Notes: generated from the letters alone by a model not told the origin. 46,767 bases of DNA from Sharpea azabuensis DSM 18934 (GCF_000702165.1 NZ_JNKU01000018.1:1-46767); one strand, 5' to 3'. Shown: positions 3,964 through 14,075, counted from the first letter of the stretch. Numbers and translations: made by a program.

Positions 3964-4860
3964 ATGAGTAATGGTATCTTATTTAATATACAAAAGTTCA
4001 GCATTCATGACGTCCTGGCATCAGGACAACACTATTCTTAAAAGGATGTCCTTTAAGATGCCAATGGTGTGCAAACCCAGAAAGCCATCTGGCAAAGATT
4101 CAGGTCCTCTATCACCAAGAAGACTGCCTGCATTGTCTCAATTGTGTTCATCTCTATCCTACGCATGCATTAACACATCAGGATCAATGCATTCATGTAG
4201 ACTTCAATAAATGTATCGGCTGTCTAGAATGTGTGAAGAATTGTCCTGGACATGCCTTAAGTAATGAAGGGGAATATAAGAGTGTTGAGGAGGTTGTGGC
4301 AATCTGTCTTCAAGACTTGCCTTTCCATGAAGAGAGCGGTGGGGGTATTACGATATCCGGTGGTGAAGGCATGAGTCAGCCTGATTTCCTACGTGAATTA
4401 CTTTCTGCCTTGAAAAAGCACAATCTTCATCTTGCGATTGAAACAATAGGATATGTGCCTGAAGACGTATTCCAAGAACTTGCTCCGATGTTTGATTTAT
4501 TACTCTTTGATATCAAGCATGCCGATTCTGAAAAAACATCAAGCAGGAACAAAGGTTGGTAATGAGCTTATCAGAAAGAATCTCAAATGGGCTATTGAAC
4601 AACACATTGAAATCCTCCCACGTATACCAGTCATTCCTCATTTCAACGATTCTTTAGACGATGCAAAGTTAATTGCCACACACTTAAAAGAATTAGGCTT
4701 AAAGAAAGTCCAGCTCTTGCCATTCCATCAAATGGGTGAAAAGAAATATCAATTGCTTCACCGCAATTATGCCTACGAGAATACAAAAGCCTTACATCCC
4801 GAAGACCTTCTTTCCTACCAACAAATCTTCACTAATCAGGGCATTGATTGTTTTTTCTAA
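3964..4860 (+). pseudogene. Glycyl-radical-enzyme activating enzyme (radical SAM), two frameshifts
   Basis: Read across three frames, the gene gives a typical activase of about 298 residues. N-terminus MSNGILFNIQKFSIHD, then GPGIRTTLFLKG with the radical-SAM cluster CPLRCQWC, then two ferredoxin-like clusters (CLHCLNC...P and CIGCLECVKNCP), SGGGITISGGE, DIKH and a C-terminal LLPFHQMG. Frameshift 1 is a lost G at about 4011-4013 (GACGTCC in place of GACGGTCC). Frameshift 2 is one extra A in the run 4531-4536. The two-cluster insertion is typical of activases of decarboxylase, diol dehydratase and lyase-type glycyl-radical enzymes. With its partner reduced to a stub, this is a true pseudogene, not sequencing noise. 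Confidence 0.85.
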
Positions 4861-7145: not shown

Positions 7146-7556
7146 CTAAATGACAATTCCATTGCAATGATCTATTTCATGCTGAATAATCTGGGCAATG
7201 GTGCCACTAAAATGGGCATGAACTTTCTTAAAGTTTGCATCATTGTACTCTAGATCAATTTCCTGATATCGCATGCAATTTTTCATTCCATCAAGTGAAA
7301 GGCAGCCTTCCTGCGTAAGATATTTACCTGACTTTCTAATAATACGGGGATTATACATGACATATTGTACATTACTCATACTAATCGCAATAATTGCTTT
7401 ATTGATACCAATCATGTTGGCAGCCATGCCAACACATTCATCCTTATGCGCTATTAATGTATCCAACAGGTCTTGACCTGTTTCAATATCTTTCAATGTC
7501 GCTCTTTTAGCTTTCTTGCTGAATATTTGTGTTCCTTTTTTTATTTCTCTAATCAT
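7146..7556 (-). CDS. Peptide deformylase-like protein, motif-1 glutamine replaced
   Basis: The 136-residue protein shows the three deformylase motifs: GMAANMIG near residues 43-50, EGCLS (metal-binding Cys) and HEIDH (metal-binding His pair and catalytic Glu). Motif 1 is normally G-x-G-x-A-A-x-Q; here the conserved Gln position is Met. This defines a short Firmicute subfamily next to the bona fide Def. Activity on formyl-Met is therefore uncertain. The ATG at 7554-7556 is preferred because GAGG lies 6 nt upstream; the ATG at 7562 abuts it. The start overlaps the end of rarA by 8 bp, suggesting coupling. Confidence 0.82.
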   Translation of the reverse strand: MIREIKKGTQIFSKKAKRATLKDIETGQDLLDTLIAHKDECVGMAANMIGINKAIIAISMSNVQYVMYNPRIIRKSGKYLTQEGCLSLDGMKNCMRYQEIDLEYNDANFKKVHAHFSGTIAQIIQHEIDHCNGIVI

Positions 7557-8877
7557 TGTCATCCTCTTGATGTGCTTTCTTCCATTCTTTAATTGTTTTG
7601 AGTTTTTCTTTATAACGCTTTTCTAGTCCATAATTTGTTGGCTGATAGTAGGTTCTATCCTTCAAGCTATCGGGCAGACATTGCATTGCAGTGATGGCAT
7701 TTGGTGCATCATGGGCATACTGGTAGCCTTCCCCATAACGTAAATCCTTCATAAGTTTAGTCTCGGCATTTCGCAAGACTAATGGCACCGGCTCAGCCAT
7801 TGTCTTGTTGGCATCCATTGCCGCCTGATTATAAGCAAGATAAAGGGCATTGCTTTTAGGAGCAAGTGCGCAGAAGGTAACGGCTTCTGTTAAATGGACG
7901 GTGCACTCTGGCATACCAATAAAGTGACAGGCCTGATAAGCAGCAACACAGATTTCTAACGCCTTAGGTTCAGCAAGACCAATATCTTCTGAAGCAAAGC
8001 GTGTCACTCTTCTAGCAATATATATTGGATCTTCTCCCGCTTCAAGCATTCTTGCCAAATAATAGATGGCCGCATCAGGATCAGAATTACGCATGGATTT
8101 ATGCAAAGCAGAAATGAGATTATAATGCTCTTCTCCTTGCTTGTCATAAAGCAGAAACTTCTTACTTGTTGATTGGATAATATTGTCCTTTGTTACATGA
8201 ATAACACCATTTTCTTCCGGTGCATTCAAGATGATCATTTCCAGTGTTGTTAAAGCGCTTCTTGCATCCCCATTCGCAAATTGTGCAATGGCATGAATCA
8301 TATCATCAGTGATATCTGTTGTAAGATTGCCAAAACCCTTTGGTGAATGCAGGGCATTTTTTATCAGATCAACAAGATCTTCTTCACTTAAAGGCTTTAA
8401 GACAAAGACCTTACATCTTGACAATAAGGCACTATTGACTTCAAAAGATGGATTTTCTGTTGTTGCACCTATCAGTGTTATACTGCCATTTTCAACATAG
8501 GGCAAGAAAGCATCTTGCTGGGCTTTATTAAAGCGATGGATTTCGTCCACAAAAATAATCGTCTTAGCCCCCTGCATATGAGCTACTTTTGCTTCTTGCA
8601 TGACATTTCTGATATCTTTAATGCCACTTGTAACAGCCGAAAAAGTTATAAAACGAGCTGATGTCTGATGCGCAATAATGCGTGCAAGTGTTGTCTTGCC
8701 AACACCGGGCGGTCCCCAGAATATCATTGAAGGAACACGATCATTTTCAATCAAGCGATAAAGTATTTTATCTTTACCAAGCAAATGCCTCTGACCCACA
8801 AACTCTTCTAAATTCTCAGGTCTTAAGCGACTTGCCAAGGGCTCATTCTCATTTTCAAATAAACTTAATTGTTCCAT
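7549..8877 (-). CDS. rarA: Replication-associated recombination protein A (RarA/MgsA)
   Basis: The 442-residue AAA+ ATPase has Walker A GPPGVGKTT (about residues 55-63), Walker B IIFVDEIHRFN, a sensor region GATTENPSFEVN, and the MgsA C-terminal tetramerisation part. Length is typical for RarA/MgsA/WRNIP1, which acts at stalled replication forks with SSB. The extreme N-terminus reads MEQLSLFENE; QLSLF matches the consensus beta-clamp-binding pentapeptide. A GAGGT site precedes the ATG. There is no obvious promoter between it and the terminator at 8887-8912, so its promoter may lie inside the end of the upstream gene. Confidence 0.95.
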   Translation of the reverse strand: MEQLSLFENENEPLASRLRPENLEEFVGQRHLLGKDKILYRLIENDRVPSMIFWGPPGVGKTTLARIIAHQTSARFITFSAVTSGIKDIRNVMQEAKVAHMQGAKTIIFVDEIHRFNKAQQDAFLPYVENGSITLIGATTENPSFEVNSALLSRCKVFVLKPLSEEDLVDLIKNALHSPKGFGNLTTDITDDMIHAIAQFANGDARSALTTLEMIILNAPEENGVIHVTKDNIIQSTSKKFLLYDKQGEEHYNLISALHKSMRNSDPDAAIYYLARMLEAGEDPIYIARRVTRFASEDIGLAEPKALEICVAAYQACHFIGMPECTVHLTEAVTFCALAPKSNALYLAYNQAAMDANKTMAEPVPLVLRNAETKLMKDLRYGEGYQYAHDAPNAITAMQCLPDSLKDRTYYQPTNYGLEKRYKEKLKTIKEWKKAHQEDDND

Positions 8878-8886
8878 ACTTACCTC

Positions 8887-8912
8887 ACAAAAAAGGAAGC
8901 CTAAGCTTCCTT
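8887..8912 (-). terminator. Intrinsic terminator of the CheB-CheR hybrid gene
   Basis: On the minus strand GGAAGC-TTAG-GCTTCC is followed by TTTTTTG. The TAG stop codon of the hybrid gene lies in the loop. Confidence 0.85.
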
Positions 8913-11900
8913 CTGATCTTGTTTTTCTACTCTTTCAAACTCACGTGACAACAACATAAAGAGTCGTTCCGTATCAATCGGCTTAGAGAGATGGCCATTC
9001 ATGCCAGCAGCTAAACACTTCTCTTCTGTTACAGCGAAAGAATCAGCTGTCAAGGCAATAATTGGGATAGTCATTGCGTCCGGTGAATCAACGGATCTGA
9101 TTTCCCTTGCCGCATCAAAGCCATTCTTGATTGGCATCATGATATCCATAATGATTGCCTGATAATGATAGGCACCACCATTAATAAACATTTCAACAAC
9201 CTCTTCACCATCACGAGCCAGTTCCGAATGCACACCCTTTTCAGCTAGTATTTCCATAATCACTTCAGCATTCAACTGATTGTCTTCAGCAACCAGGACA
9301 TTCTTGCCTTTCAAGATGATTGATTCAAATGAATCATTTGCTTTTTCACTGATATGAATCTGTTCATCAGTTGCTAAGTCAAACTGGAATGTCAATGTAA
9401 ATGTTGTACCTTTGCCAAGTGCTGATTTACATGAAATCGTACCGTCAAGAAGATCAACAAGCGTTTTAACAATATATAAACCAAGTCCTGTTCCATCTCT
9501 TGTCTCATTGACTTCATCTTCCTGTTCAAATGGCAGGAACATACGTTTCTGGAAATTATCACTCATGCCCTTACCATCATCACTGATTGTATAGACATGT
9601 GTAACCTTGCCATCCTTATAGCTTGCTTTGCCATTGAATGATACATGGCCACCTTCAGGCGTAAACTTGAGGGCGTTCGTTAATATGTTGACGAGTATTC
9701 TAGTCAGATGTTCGCTATCAATTAAGGCATAACGGCCCTGACAGTTTTCAAAATGTGATTCATAATGTAGTTTTGAATCTTTGGCTTTAGGTGAGATGAT
9801 GGCATTGACATCATCAAATACAGAATTCTCATTCATCACCTCAAAAGCAGGAACAATCTTGCCTGCATTCAATTGACTTGTTTCAAGCACCTCTTCAATC
9901 ATATTTAAGAGATAGTGAGAAGAAATATCGATTTTCTTTAGATTATCCCTAGCCTTTTCTGGTAAATTCATATGAAGAGTAAGATCTGTTAAGCCGCTAA
10001 TTGCCGTCATCGGCGTACGCATATCATGACTCATATGGGAAAGGAATGCTTCCTTCGCTTTAGAGTTCTCGGTAGCTGCTTTAAGCGCTTTGGCCATTTC
10101 TTCAACCTGGGCCATGCTGTTGGCTTGTGATGTCGTATCAACAAAAGTCAATACCAAGCCAGAAACTGGTGCCTTATTATCTTCCTGCTTACTTACGGCA
10201 CGATATGGTGAAATACGTAAGAGATATGTCTTGCCTGTCACAGAAGCACAATGTATTTCAACTGGCTTAAGGTCAAGTAGAACCTGATGACAAAGCTCAA
10301 TGAGATTGATTGTTGCAAAGTTATAAGCAATATAGCGTAACGAGCGACCAACATCCTGGTCAGCTAAGTTAAACTCAGATGTAATATATTCAGTAAACTT
10401 ACAAATATTAAGATCACGGTCAACCATGATAATACCAACCAGTGTTGTTGATAGGAAGTTAGCCATATCATCATTAACACTAGCAAGTTCCTGGACTTTG
10501 CTTTGGTATTCGGAATTGACTGTATAAAGCTCTTCATTGACGGATTGTAATTCTTCATTGGAAGATTGCAATTCTTCATTAGCGGTTAAAAGTTCCTCAT
10601 TAGCAGTCTGCAGCTCCGCATTGACACTTTCAAGTTCTGTTACTGTATTCTTCAAATTTTCCTGAGTGATAGAAAGTTCTCGCTCTAGATCACTAATACG
10701 CTCACTTGCAGCAGTATCAACCTTGTAGACAGACATATCCTTAGTCACTGGACGTTTTTCTCTAATAAAGGCAATTGCCGTCATTGAAGTACGATCACCA
10801 AGCTTATCAGTAAGCGGTGTAGCGACAATGGAAATATATTCAGGATTTTTTTCAAGTAATACAGGCACTTCATCATAGGCCACACGTTTCTGTTTTTCAC
10901 GCGCTTCTTTTAAAGCCTTGCTGACAGCTATCTTCAAATCATTACGGACAAGCTGGAAGATATCCAATGTGACCTTGCCAGTTGGGATTGTAATAAAGAG
11001 CGAACAATCACCATAACTGTGTTCTAGCTCATTTTTTTCATTAATGACAACACAGGCTGGCATTAAATCTTCAAGCACTTTCGTATCAAGTTCCTGTGAA
11101 GAATATTGATGATCAACATCACGTGAAGAAGTATGATATGTAGCAACAGGAGAAAGATAGTCTTCAACCGACTGTAATGAATAGCTGATGCGATCATGCT
11201 TAGGCATCTTGCCACTGGCATCATGAATGAAGATCTTTTCGTTAGCACAATAAACCTTAAAGACATTATCATATGTAGATACGGATTCACTGCGTCCTAA
11301 GAACAAGAAGCCCTTATCTTTCAATGCCATATGGAAAATCGAGAAGAGGTCCTTTTGTAGGACATTCTGGAAATAAATCAACAAGTTACGACAGCTAATT
11401 AAATCTAGCTTACCAAAAGGAGGATCCTGGAAGACATTATGCTGGGCAAAGATCAACATTCTTCTGATTTCATGATTGACAGTATACTTGCTGCCTCGTC
11501 TTGTAAAGAAACGAGAGAGACGCGCCACTGAAACATCTTCAATAATATTATCACCATAGACACCTCGACCGGCAAAATTAACACTATCAGCATCAAGATC
11601 TGTAGCAAAGATCTTGATATCTCTTTGCATATTTAATTCTTCCATTACTTCCGCAAAGAGAATGGCAATGGAATATGCTTCTTCGCCAGTTGAGCAGCCA
11701 GCAACCCAGACACGAATCAAATCGCTAGGTGAAGCTTCCTGCACGATTTTCTTGACAACACGTTCCTTCAATACATCAAAATAATCCGGATCTCTAAAGA
11801 AACGAGTAACGCCAATCAAGACTTCCTTACCGAGAATTTTTGCTTCTTCAGGATTGTTATTCAGGTATGTGACATACTCTTTTAAATTACGATTATGTGT

Positions 11901-12656
11901 AATCACAATTCTTCTTTCAATACGTCTTAGAACAGTTGTCTGCTTATAATAAGTATAGTTGACATTGGTAACGGACTGCAGTATTGAAAAAACTTTATTC
12001 ATTAAATCATTGTCAGTGAGTTCAATATCCTTATTGACATTCATCATGCTTGCAGAAATATGACTCATTTCTCTTGCAATAGCGTCAGGTGATAGAACAA
12101 GGTCGACAAATCCTGTAGCAATTGCATTACGTGGCATGCCATCGAATTTAGCCGATTCAGGTGATTGGACAATAATTACACCATTCTGTTCCTTGATGGA
12201 GCGAATGCCATTTGTGCCATCACTGCCCGTACCTGACAAGATAACAGCGACTGACTTGTTTTCATAAGCACTTGCGAGCGATCTTAAAAAGATATCAATA
12301 GGATGATTAATATGAGTATGATTATATTCGCTTAAATAAAGTGTATCTGAGACAATCTCAATATTATATTTAGGTGGCAGCATATAGATGGTATTACGTT
12401 CAACCTTCATGCCATCCTTGGCTTCCACTACCGGCATGGAAGTATATTTTCCTAAAATATCCACCAGTAAACTCTTGTGATCCGGTGAAAGATGCTGAAT
12501 GATGACATAAGCCATTCCTGTGTCGCTAGGCAAGAAAGTCAGCAATTGCTGCAAAGCTTCAAGCCCACCAGCACTTGCGCCAATTCCTACGACACAATGT
12601 GGCCTTACTTCTACATTTTTTGCCACAAGCGTAGTCTTTGCATTAGATTGATTCAT
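8901..12656 (-). CDS. CheB-CheR-PAS-histidine kinase-receiver hybrid sensor protein
   Basis: This 1251-residue protein fuses a complete set of signalling modules. Residues about 20-200 are a CheB methylesterase, with catalytic Ser28 in GIGASAGG, His55 and Asp146 in GTGSDG. Residues 215-475 are a CheR methyltransferase, with SAM motif VAGCSTGEEAYS at 318-329 and SCRNLLIYF. A long coiled coil of repeated NEEL/ELQS units (about 660-725) leads to a PAS domain. Then come HisKA with SHMSHDMRTP (His near 877), a HATPase (NALKFTP near 995, GTGLGL) and a receiver with phospho-Asp near 1169 (IIMDIMMP). No membrane segment, so it is cytosolic. No receptor or output gene is adjacent. Strong AGGAGG before ATG. 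Confidence 0.95.
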   Translation of the reverse strand: MNQSNAKTTLVAKNVEVRPHCVVGIGASAGGLEALQQLLTFLPSDTGMAYVIIQHLSPDHKSLLVDILGKYTSMPVVEAKDGMKVERNTIYMLPPKYNIEIVSDTLYLSEYNHTHINHPIDIFLRSLASAYENKSVAVILSGTGSDGTNGIRSIKEQNGVIIVQSPESAKFDGMPRNAIATGFVDLVLSPDAIAREMSHISASMMNVNKDIELTDNDLMNKVFSILQSVTNVNYTYYKQTTVLRRIERRIVITHNRNLKEYVTYLNNNPEEAKILGKEVLIGVTRFFRDPDYFDVLKERVVKKIVQEASPSDLIRVWVAGCSTGEEAYSIAILFAEVMEELNMQRDIKIFATDLDADSVNFAGRGVYGDNIIEDVSVARLSRFFTRRGSKYTVNHEIRRMLIFAQHNVFQDPPFGKLDLISCRNLLIYFQNVLQKDLFSIFHMALKDKGFLFLGRSESVSTYDNVFKVYCANEKIFIHDASGKMPKHDRISYSLQSVEDYLSPVATYHTSSRDVDHQYSSQELDTKVLEDLMPACVVINEKNELEHSYGDCSLFITIPTGKVTLDIFQLVRNDLKIAVSKALKEAREKQKRVAYDEVPVLLEKNPEYISIVATPLTDKLGDRTSMTAIAFIREKRPVTKDMSVYKVDTAASERISDLERELSITQENLKNTVTELESVNAELQTANEELLTANEELQSSNEELQSVNEELYTVNSEYQSKVQELASVNDDMANFLSTTLVGIIMVDRDLNICKFTEYITSEFNLADQDVGRSLRYIAYNFATINLIELCHQVLLDLKPVEIHCASVTGKTYLLRISPYRAVSKQEDNKAPVSGLVLTFVDTTSQANSMAQVEEMAKALKAATENSKAKEAFLSHMSHDMRTPMTAISGLTDLTLHMNLPEKARDNLKKIDISSHYLLNMIEEVLETSQLNAGKIVPAFEVMNENSVFDDVNAIISPKAKDSKLHYESHFENCQGRYALIDSEHLTRILVNILTNALKFTPEGGHVSFNGKASYKDGKVTHVYTISDDGKGMSDNFQKRMFLPFEQEDEVNETRDGTGLGLYIVKTLVDLLDGTISCKSALGKGTTFTLTFQFDLATDEQIHISEKANDSFESIILKGKNVLVAEDNQLNAEVIMEILAEKGVHSELARDGEEVVEMFINGGAYHYQAIIMDIMMPIKNGFDAAREIRSVDSPDAMTIPIIALTADSFAVTEEKCLAAGMNGHLSKPIDTERLFMLLSREFERVEKQDQKEA

Positions 12657-12698
12657 AATTATCCTCCTGTAAAATAGTTCATAGTTCTAAGTAAATTC

Positions 12699-12727
12699 AT
12701 TATATAAAAAGATTTAAGCATCTGTCT
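12699..12727 (-). promoter_or_regulatory. Possible promoter of the CheB-CheR hybrid gene
   Basis: TATAAT (12699-12704 on the minus strand) lies 43 nt before the ATG. An AAGACA-like -35 sits about 18 bp upstream, inside the end of the preceding gene. The -35 is poor, so the gene may also be read with the upstream gene. Confidence 0.4.
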
Positions 12728-13496
12728 TTAAGACAATCTGACCAATTATTTCTTCAAGTTGTTTCTTGATCATTTCAAATTGTTCTATATCATGCATCAG
12801 TCTTTTCTTTTCTTCATTAAGCATAGCTTCATCCTTAACAAGCTCCTGTTTATCAAATGGGGCGCGAATAGGAATCCATTCAAGTTTGATATTCTTTTGT
12901 TGGATGAGCTTTTCCATTTTTTCTAGTAGAAGCTGTTTTTCTTTAAAAGTGAGATTTTCATTATTCTCACAGGCAAGACGGTTTAAATCTGCCAATGCAA
13001 CATAGTCATTGGCAATAAAAGCCATCTGTGCTCTTTTAAAAATATTCATATTCGTCGGTGATGTATAATAATGCAAGTCGGGATGGATTTTATAGATGAT
13101 TTCTTTATATTGATCATAGATAATGCCTTTCTCATAAAAGCCAACATCATCGCTTTCGAGATATCTTTTACTCGCTTCCACTTTCTCCTTATACTCAGCC
13201 AGTTTATTGATATTCTCTTCACGCATACTTTCAAGTATTGCATCAAGCATTGTTGAAGATATATATTCTCCTCTTTCTCTATATTGTTTTACAATTGAGA
13301 CACGTTTATTCAAGTACTGGCATAGATAGAAAAGTTTTGTACGTTCATAGATCAAATCACCAAGTTTTGCATCATACATTGCCTTGATGACTACGCCTTG
13401 CTTGGTTTTTTCATCTATTGCTTCTTCCAAAGTAGCAAGCTTTTCCTTTGTATACTCAAACTTGGTCTCAAACATTCTTAATGTTCTCTCGTCCAT
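12714..13496 (-). CDS. Unrecognised coiled-coil protein with an HPD motif
   Basis: The 260-residue protein is almost entirely helical and charged. Predicted coiled coil fills residues about 8-50 and 95-120, and again 185-250. Around residue 140 it reads IYKIHPDLHYY, followed by FKRAQMAFIANDYVALADL. This HPD-plus-helix layout resembles a degenerate J-domain-like module found in clostridial hypothetical proteins. No membrane or signal segment. It is immediately upstream of the CheB-CheR-kinase gene in the same direction, 57 bp apart, without a terminator between, so it may be part of the same pathway. Function unknown. Confidence 0.72.
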   Translation of the reverse strand: MDERTLRMFETKFEYTKEKLATLEEAIDEKTKQGVVIKAMYDAKLGDLIYERTKLFYLCQYLNKRVSIVKQYRERGEYISSTMLDAILESMREENINKLAEYKEKVEASKRYLESDDVGFYEKGIIYDQYKEIIYKIHPDLHYYTSPTNMNIFKRAQMAFIANDYVALADLNRLACENNENLTFKEKQLLLEKMEKLIQQKNIKLEWIPIRAPFDKQELVKDEAMLNEEKKRLMHDIEQFEMIKKQLEEIIGQIVLKTDA

Positions 13497-13514
13497 GCAT
13501 TATCACCTAATAGT

Positions 13515-13520
13515 ATTATA
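13515..13520 (-). promoter_or_regulatory. -10 element upstream of the coiled-coil gene
   Basis: A TATAAT hexamer stands about 20 nt before the ATG on the minus strand; no convincing -35 is seen. Confidence 0.35.
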
Positions 13521-13610
13521 CACACCCCAAGTAAAAACATGTAGTATGAATCACGAAATTACTAAAAAAATAAGCATAATACAAACTATTTTGATAACAA
13601 AAAAGCCAGC

Positions 13611-14075
13611 TTATCTCTGATATGCATGCTGAAAGCTTGTTTCAACAATCTGTTCATAAACATCAATTCGATCTTCAAGAGCTAATAGATAGCCCATCGC
13701 TCCACCAATAACAACAAGCATATGCATAGGCTGCAGTTCTTTATCATCCGATACAAAAATCAGATGTCCTTCATCACTTTGCGCAATGCCAATTTCACAT
13801 GCCTTGCTTTCAAGCTGATGGTCCCTGATTGGTGGACACAAGCCAAGATTAATCTTCGCATTCGCAAAGCTTGAAACTTCATTCATAAAGCTTAAAGCAT
13901 CAAAGACAAAGCGAGCATCCTGTTTTGTCATTTCATTGACATTTTTATGAATGACAAATTGGGCAATGGCATAAAAGAAAAACTCCTTCAGTCTGTTTGT
14001 ATCAACCTCATGATTTTGTTCATAAGTCACATTGTTGTTCTCATCAATCTTGAGAATACCCATCATTTCCTTCAT
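13611..14075 (-). CDS. Hypothetical cytosolic protein
   Basis: The 154-residue protein is not recognised. It starts MKEMMGILKIDENNNVTYEQ and has a helical middle (FVFDALSFMNEVSSFANAK) and a short hydrophobic segment MHMLVVIGGAMGYLLALED near residues 115-133, probably buried rather than transmembrane. It has a CPPIRDHQLESKAC stretch with two cysteines. Its ATG overlaps the stop of the upstream 79-residue gene (TAATG at 14075), a sign of translational coupling; the two products probably act together. Only a weak CAGC/GCTG hairpin with T6 follows. Confidence 0.72.
   Translation of the reverse strand: MKEMMGILKIDENNNVTYEQNHEVDTNRLKEFFFYAIAQFVIHKNVNEMTKQDARFVFDALSFMNEVSSFANAKINLGLCPPIRDHQLESKACEIGIAQSDEGHLIFVSDDKELQPMHMLVVIGGAMGYLLALEDRIDVYEQIVETSFQHAYQR

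Follow-up and report, generated by a model that had tools for sequence, protein, structure and literature searches.

The 46,767-nucleotide stretch of DNA analyzed here (the window; Sharpea azabuensis DSM 18934, GCF_000702165.1, NZ_JNKU01000018.1:1-46767) contains a single intact open reading frame of 1251 amino acids that starts with ATG and has no internal stops. It encodes a fusion of chemotaxis-type methylation enzymes, PAS domains, a histidine kinase and a receiver, hereafter the hybrid (Table 1). The Pfam matches to CheB, CheR_N, CheR, PAS_10, HisKA, HATPase_c and the receiver all exceed their own cut-offs, and the characteristic motifs of CheB (GASAGG, QHLSPDH and GTGSDG), CheR (FFRD, GCSTGEE and CRNLLIYF), the kinase (LSHMSHD in HisKA, and the N and G boxes) and the receiver (LVAEDN and MDIMMP) are present. 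Because the peak 19-residue hydropathy is 1.25, no transmembrane helix is expected. Reading frame, domain matches, motifs and hydropathy thus agree with a preliminary description of this DNA, in which all catalytic residues were said to appear intact in one soluble 1251-residue chain. That description overlooked a conserved helix between the PAS domains, as well as one of the two PAS domains themselves.

Two reading frames just upstream of the hybrid gene (12714-13496 and 13611-14075, both on the minus strand) have no Pfam or NCBIfam match. The nearer one begins 58 bases from the hybrid gene, in the same orientation, and could be cotranscribed with it. Elsewhere in the window, two short overlapping frames occupy positions 4233-4860 on the plus strand; the second resembles, by eye, the C-terminal part of a glycyl-radical activating enzyme, and the two are possibly a frameshifted or truncated gene.

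Table 1 Features of the hybrid gene and its product.
Feature	Residues	Coordinates	Strand	Basis
Whole gene, CheB-CheR-PAS-helix-PAS-HisKA-HATPase-REC hybrid		8901..12656	-	ORF and Pfam
CheB methylesterase domain, without receiver	23-196	12069..12590	-	Pfam PF01339, E 2e-58; Ser/His/Asp motifs kept
CheR N-terminal all-alpha domain (CheR_N)	220-269	11850..11999	-	Pfam PF03705
CheR methyltransferase, AdoMet-binding domain	283-470	11247..11810	-	Pfam PF01739, E 1e-54; conserved residues in 75 fused CheRs
First PAS fold, missed by Pfam	~525-632	10761..11084	-	AlphaFold (pLDDT 78) and Foldseek
Continuous predicted helix of ~90 residues	648-737	10446..10715	-	AlphaFold model
NEEL heptad repeat, proposed in-cis methylation helix	671-731	10464..10646	-	Conservation, synonymous divergence, CheR-specific profile, MCP-like flanks
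Glu pairs in NEEL heptad repeat	start at 687, 694, 701, 708			
Second PAS domain (PAS_10)	731-841	10134..10466	-	Pfam PF13596, E 1e-13
HisKA dimerization/phosphoacceptor domain	867-932	9861..10058	-	Pfam PF00512; H-box LSHMSHD
HATPase_c kinase domain	980-1092	9381..9719	-	Pfam PF02518
C-terminal receiver (Response_reg)	1120-1233	8958..9299	-	Pfam PF00072; phosphoacceptor Asp in MDIMMP

With a phosphoacceptor histidine in HisKA, a HATPase_c domain and a C-terminal receiver that has its aspartate, the protein is a hybrid histidine kinase. CheB, CheR, PAS and histidine kinase are joined in one open frame, as established by Pfam and the intact ORF, and a NEEL heptad helix, a defining feature introduced in this analysis, lies between CheR/PAS and the next PAS domain; the hybrid is thus a member of a known, uncharacterized fusion family. 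The CheB and CheR motifs, the H-box and the receiver phosphoacceptor aspartate are conserved among 26 full-length orthologs. The equivalents of the E. coli CheR residues R98, E129, Y, R, N and Y are retained in 74-75 of the 75 fused CheRs compared.

The region between CheR and the kinase was modeled with AlphaFold. In the model of residues 515-850, two PAS-like folds are joined by one helix, and a Foldseek search with this model returned tandem PAS sensors, among them DosP and the LOV-histidine kinase of Brucella. A longer model, of residues 16-868, reached a pLDDT of 58, too poor for placing the helix relative to the CheR active site. Among solved structures, no chain with the fusion was found, and the helix matched generic coiled coils only.

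No stretch of the protein is more highly conserved than the inter-PAS helix. Residues 671-731 (TVTELESVNAELQTANEELLTANEELQSSNEELQSVNEELYTVNSEYQSKVQELASVNDDM) form a heptad repeat of the form [ST]xNEELx. Among 23 dereplicated orthologs, 84% of the columns in the helix are invariant; the figure is 46-49% for CheB and CheR and drops to 18-32% for the PAS, kinase and receiver domains. Of 1191 windows as long as the helix, just 3 reach its count of invariant columns, and all of the top 60-residue conservation windows begin at residues 670-677. Synonymous codon differences in the helix (0.525) are close to those elsewhere in the gene (0.548), which indicates that selection acts on the protein and not on the DNA; recent gene conversion or a DNA-level constraint was therefore rejected as the source of the conservation. 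Over 45 diverse linkers, heptad position c is S, T or A in 93% of cases, e is N in 75%, f is E in 89%, g is E in 99% and a is L in 82%, with d and b variable; the heptads were picked for at least two of N, E and E, so these three percentages are inflated. This register is provisional; in an alternative one, with N at a and L at d, the second glutamate falls at position c, the position of the methylated residues in MCPs (PMC6829392).

The preliminary description had noted the absence of a receptor from the window, and this absence extends to the entire genome, which is listed as 100% complete. Neither an MCP signaling (MCPsignal) domain nor CheW was found in the genome search, so a canonical chemotaxis system is lacking on both counts, and the hybrid is the sole CheR. 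The orphan status proposed for the protein is thereby upheld: the finding that had been named as speaking against it, a complete chemotaxis system in which CheB and CheR are separate proteins, did not emerge from the genome searches for MCPs, CheW and CheR. One HPt protein was detected (118 amino acids; contig 25, 34726-35082, minus strand; L149 7726-8082). It is encoded elsewhere than the hybrid gene and is a candidate phosphorelay partner of the hybrid. Since the genome also encodes two further hybrid kinases, located in one cluster, and a total of 17 receiver domains, a shared phosphorelay from the hybrid through this HPt to one response regulator is plausible.

Occurrence in a Firmicute, which the preliminary description had considered unusual, proved not to be rare. 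In addition to a 98% identical protein in Sharpea porci, we identified about 30 relatives with 57-68% identity, mostly in Lachnospiraceae genomes of guts and rumens, with some in other gut Bacillota and one in Selenomonas, and two more, about 80% identical in CheR, from another genus of Sharpea's family. A CheR tree places the Sharpea proteins together with these two in a single group inside the Bacillota hybrids and separates fused from solo CheRs; the tree was a quick one with many open forks, and its branching order is not relied upon. Only a few of the 37 genomes searched from Sharpea's family carry the hybrid, a patchy distribution that fits either horizontal transfer or repeated loss. 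Beside the hybrid genes of the relatives, no conserved signaling gene was found. The gene ftsH was considered as a partner and discarded: it lies downstream in 13 Lachnospiraceae loci, is absent from that place in Sharpea and looks like synteny of relatives.

In 22 of the 29 other carrier genomes of Bacillota, no MCP scored over the cut-off and the hybrid is the only CheR. With Sharpea included, 23 of 30 carrier genomes thus lack detected chemoreceptors and have the hybrid as their sole CheR; the completeness of the other 29 is not reported, which makes single absences weak, but the pattern is consistent. The remaining seven have MCPs, and six of these also have a solo CheR. Because MCPs are present in 27 of 30 carrier genomes of Pseudomonadota, the family in its entirety cannot be said to be independent of chemoreceptors.

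The domain complement varies among the relatives. Rhizobium etli and Azospirillum argentinense encode CheB in a separate adjoining gene and have CheR still fused to the helix. A Selenomonas relative (L028, 8744-11338) ends after the second PAS domain, without a kinase, and keeps CheB, CheR and the NEEL helix. From such CheB-split and kinase-less relatives it follows that the constant unit is CheR-PAS-helix-PAS, usually together with CheB, and that the output part is variable. In one Lachnospiraceae locus (L030, 9968-12062), an internal deletion removed CheB-CheR and a helix-PAS-kinase-receiver frame survives; the helix there is still intact, and the deletion is presumably recent, so this locus says nothing about decay of the helix without CheR.

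A profile of the helix alone was run against 120 Pseudomonadota and 392 Bacillota genomes. Among the intact frames with high scores, all those read contain CheR as well, and CheB wherever the sequence sufficed. The high-scoring exceptions are a locus cut by the start of its contig (L077), a proteobacterial hybrid whose gene is broken, upstream of the helix, by an IS66 transposase-like frame (L104) and two short remnants (L182 and L184). Weak matches, of 18-28 bits, were EEL-heptad coils that precede HisKA in large hybrid kinases without an in-frame CheR. At 8 of 13 such loci, a stand-alone cheR abuts or overlaps the kinase gene, accompanied in four of the eight by a receiverless cheB; the other 5 of 13 have no CheR nearby. 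The adjacency corresponds to a p of about 7e-9 at a chance of 4% per 15-kb stretch, a rate that is our own assumption and not drawn from a matched control set. Since nearness to cheR was no part of the query, the adjacency supports an association of EEL kinase coils with CheR, fused or not. Operons with an EEL-coil hybrid kinase, a stand-alone cheR and a receiverless cheB, with overlapping or abutting start and stop codons, were seen at L189, L190, L192 and L201 (also L036, region 7430-13606).

The helix was compared with known methylation sites using the Alexander-Zhulin consensus as quoted in PMC6829392, either in strict form ([ASTG][ASTG]xx[EQ][EQ]xx[ASTG][ASTG]) or relaxed to at least three of the four small flanking residues. 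The relaxed form fits 49% of the Glu/Gln pairs in the helices and 35% of those in MCP cytoplasmic domains, and only 3.5% of those outside the helices in these proteins and 3.7% in other window proteins; in the Sharpea helix it fits two of six pairs. The full consensus is matched by about 1% of helix pairs, versus 19% in MCPs, and by none of the six Sharpea pairs. In a permutation test on 20 MCPs, the helix profile fell within the methylation regions in 10 of 20, compared with 7.6 +/- 3.1 for shuffled profiles; the difference is not significant, because composition alone draws Glu/Ser-rich patterns into these regions. The helix thus resembles methylation sites and departs from their strict definition, and for this reason we do not count it among methyl-accepting proteins of the MCP kind. 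We maintain no more than that it most likely functions in the manner of one.

We propose, with a confidence that falls just short of even, that the hybrid is self-adapting, a "methyl-accepting" histidine kinase of the hybrid type in which the helix would serve CheR and CheB as their substrate. The analysis established the domain architecture, the intact catalytic motifs, a genome without MCPs or CheW, the high conservation of a helix specific to CheR-containing proteins, and a structure prediction in which this helix runs unbroken. In favor of the proposal we count the single CheR in genomes without MCPs, the retained catalytic residues, the conservation of the helix at the protein level, its link to CheR even where CheB is split off or the kinase is missing, the MCP-like flanks of its Glu pairs and the cheR genes beside EEL-coil kinases. 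Against it stand the rarity of the full consensus, the permutation result, the low quality of the longer model, the MCPs of most Pseudomonadota carriers and the EEL-coil kinases that have no CheR close by. A cytosolic signal would be sensed by one or both PAS domains and alter the packing of the inter-PAS helix, thereby changing the activity of the HisKA/HATPase kinase, which would phosphorylate the C-terminal receiver. The fused CheR would methylate, and the fused CheB demethylate, glutamates of the NEEL heptads, either within the chain or across a dimer. We infer that methylation would tune the kinase by shifting the balance of the helix and so reset it, as methylation of MCPs resets CheA. 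From the receiver, the phosphoryl group would probably pass to the one detected HPt and from there to a response regulator. The preliminary description had left a choice between unknown receptors and an altogether different methylated target; the evidence favors a different target, one located inside the protein itself, and makes unknown receptors the less favored option.

It is also conceivable, although we consider it less likely than the proposal above, that the NEEL helix is an unmethylated structural signaling helix, or a docking surface for CheR and CheB, and that the two enzymes act in trans on another protein of the cell. Coiled-coil signaling helices often connect PAS domains to HisKA, EEL heptads occur in the five kinases without a nearby CheR, the strict consensus is rarely matched, and the permutation test was not significant. 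However, a plain coiled coil keeps its core and varies its surface; here positions c, e, f and g (S/T/A, N, E and E) are conserved beside the leucine, and, in the provisional register, one candidate core position varies. The helix is, moreover, more conserved than the catalytic domains and tied to CheR, and no conserved neighboring gene offers itself as a trans substrate.

Two further explanations leave the helix aside. It is improbable, in our estimate, that CheB and CheR are non-catalytic sensor modules, with CheR, for example, regulating the kinase as an AdoMet sensor and no protein being methylated. The CheR family binds AdoMet, a sensor of this kind needs no acceptor protein, and any substrate is still hypothetical; but both enzymes retain their motifs, among them the Ser/His/Asp motifs of CheB, which play no part in AdoMet binding, and a methylesterase kept together with a methyltransferase argues for reversible methylation. 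Most improbable is a kinase-coupled adaptation enzyme of ordinary chemotaxis that methylates or demethylates chemoreceptors in trans. The MCPs of the Pseudomonadota carriers and of a minority of the Bacillota carriers would suit such a role, and trans methylation of MCPs is possible in Pseudomonadota; the lack of MCPs over the cut-off in most Bacillota carriers speaks against it, as does the separate solo CheR in most of those that have MCPs, and for Sharpea it is nearly excluded.

Reversible glutamate methylation is the memory of chemotaxis and takes place on chemoreceptors. Adaptation methylation on a histidine kinase, if true, would be a novel form of this known mechanism, and methylation-based adaptation would extend more generally to two-component signaling. 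It is possible, though we hold this extension only tentatively, that there is a broad class of "methyl-accepting histidine kinases", with CheR and CheB fused or adjoining, in which reversible methylation of an EEL-heptad helix provides an adaptive memory beyond chemotaxis, also in bacteria without chemoreceptors. Proteins of this kind, common in gut Lachnospiraceae and spread over Proteobacteria, would then be self-tuning sensors mislabeled as "chemotaxis protein CheB". The Sharpea protein offers a clean test case because no chemoreceptor is there to confuse the assay.

In the open-licence literature, we found no functional study of CheB-CheR-PAS-kinase fusions or of methylated histidine kinases, although earlier work may exist; one paper makes passing mention of a CheB-CheR chimera of this sort (PMC11974857). 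Among the closest known systems are CheB-CheR-PAS(-kinase) fusions such as those of Sinorhizobium meliloti pSymB and Azospirillum B510, a type annotated as "chemotaxis protein CheB" or "CheR family methyltransferase". They share with the hybrid the order of receiverless CheB, CheR, PAS, NEEL helix and PAS and a similar heptad repeat, but they occur mostly in MCP-bearing genomes, have other parts after the second PAS domain and are 35-42% identical in CheB-CheR. DosP and the Brucella LOV-histidine kinase share the PAS-helix-PAS arrangement, without CheB or CheR in their chains. The CheR-TPR fusion proteins likewise join CheR to another domain and serve non-taxis pathways, but lie in chemosensory-pathway gene clusters, are nearly absent from Gram-positives and have no CheB, PAS or kinase in the chain (PMC3447774). 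In the Pseudomonadota operons described above (L189, L190, L192 and L201), an EEL-heptad-coil kinase is similarly paired with CheR and CheB, but the enzymes are separate proteins and the weakly matching coil directly precedes HisKA. Adaptation of E. coli Tar and Tsr, where CheR and CheB act on MCPs, has in common with the hybrid the same two enzymes, a long helix, heptad-spaced glutamate pairs with small flanking residues and the proposed logic of adaptation; in Sharpea, by contrast, the genome has no MCP or CheW, the strict consensus is not matched, and the enzymes, including a CheB without a receiver of its own, are fused to the kinase.
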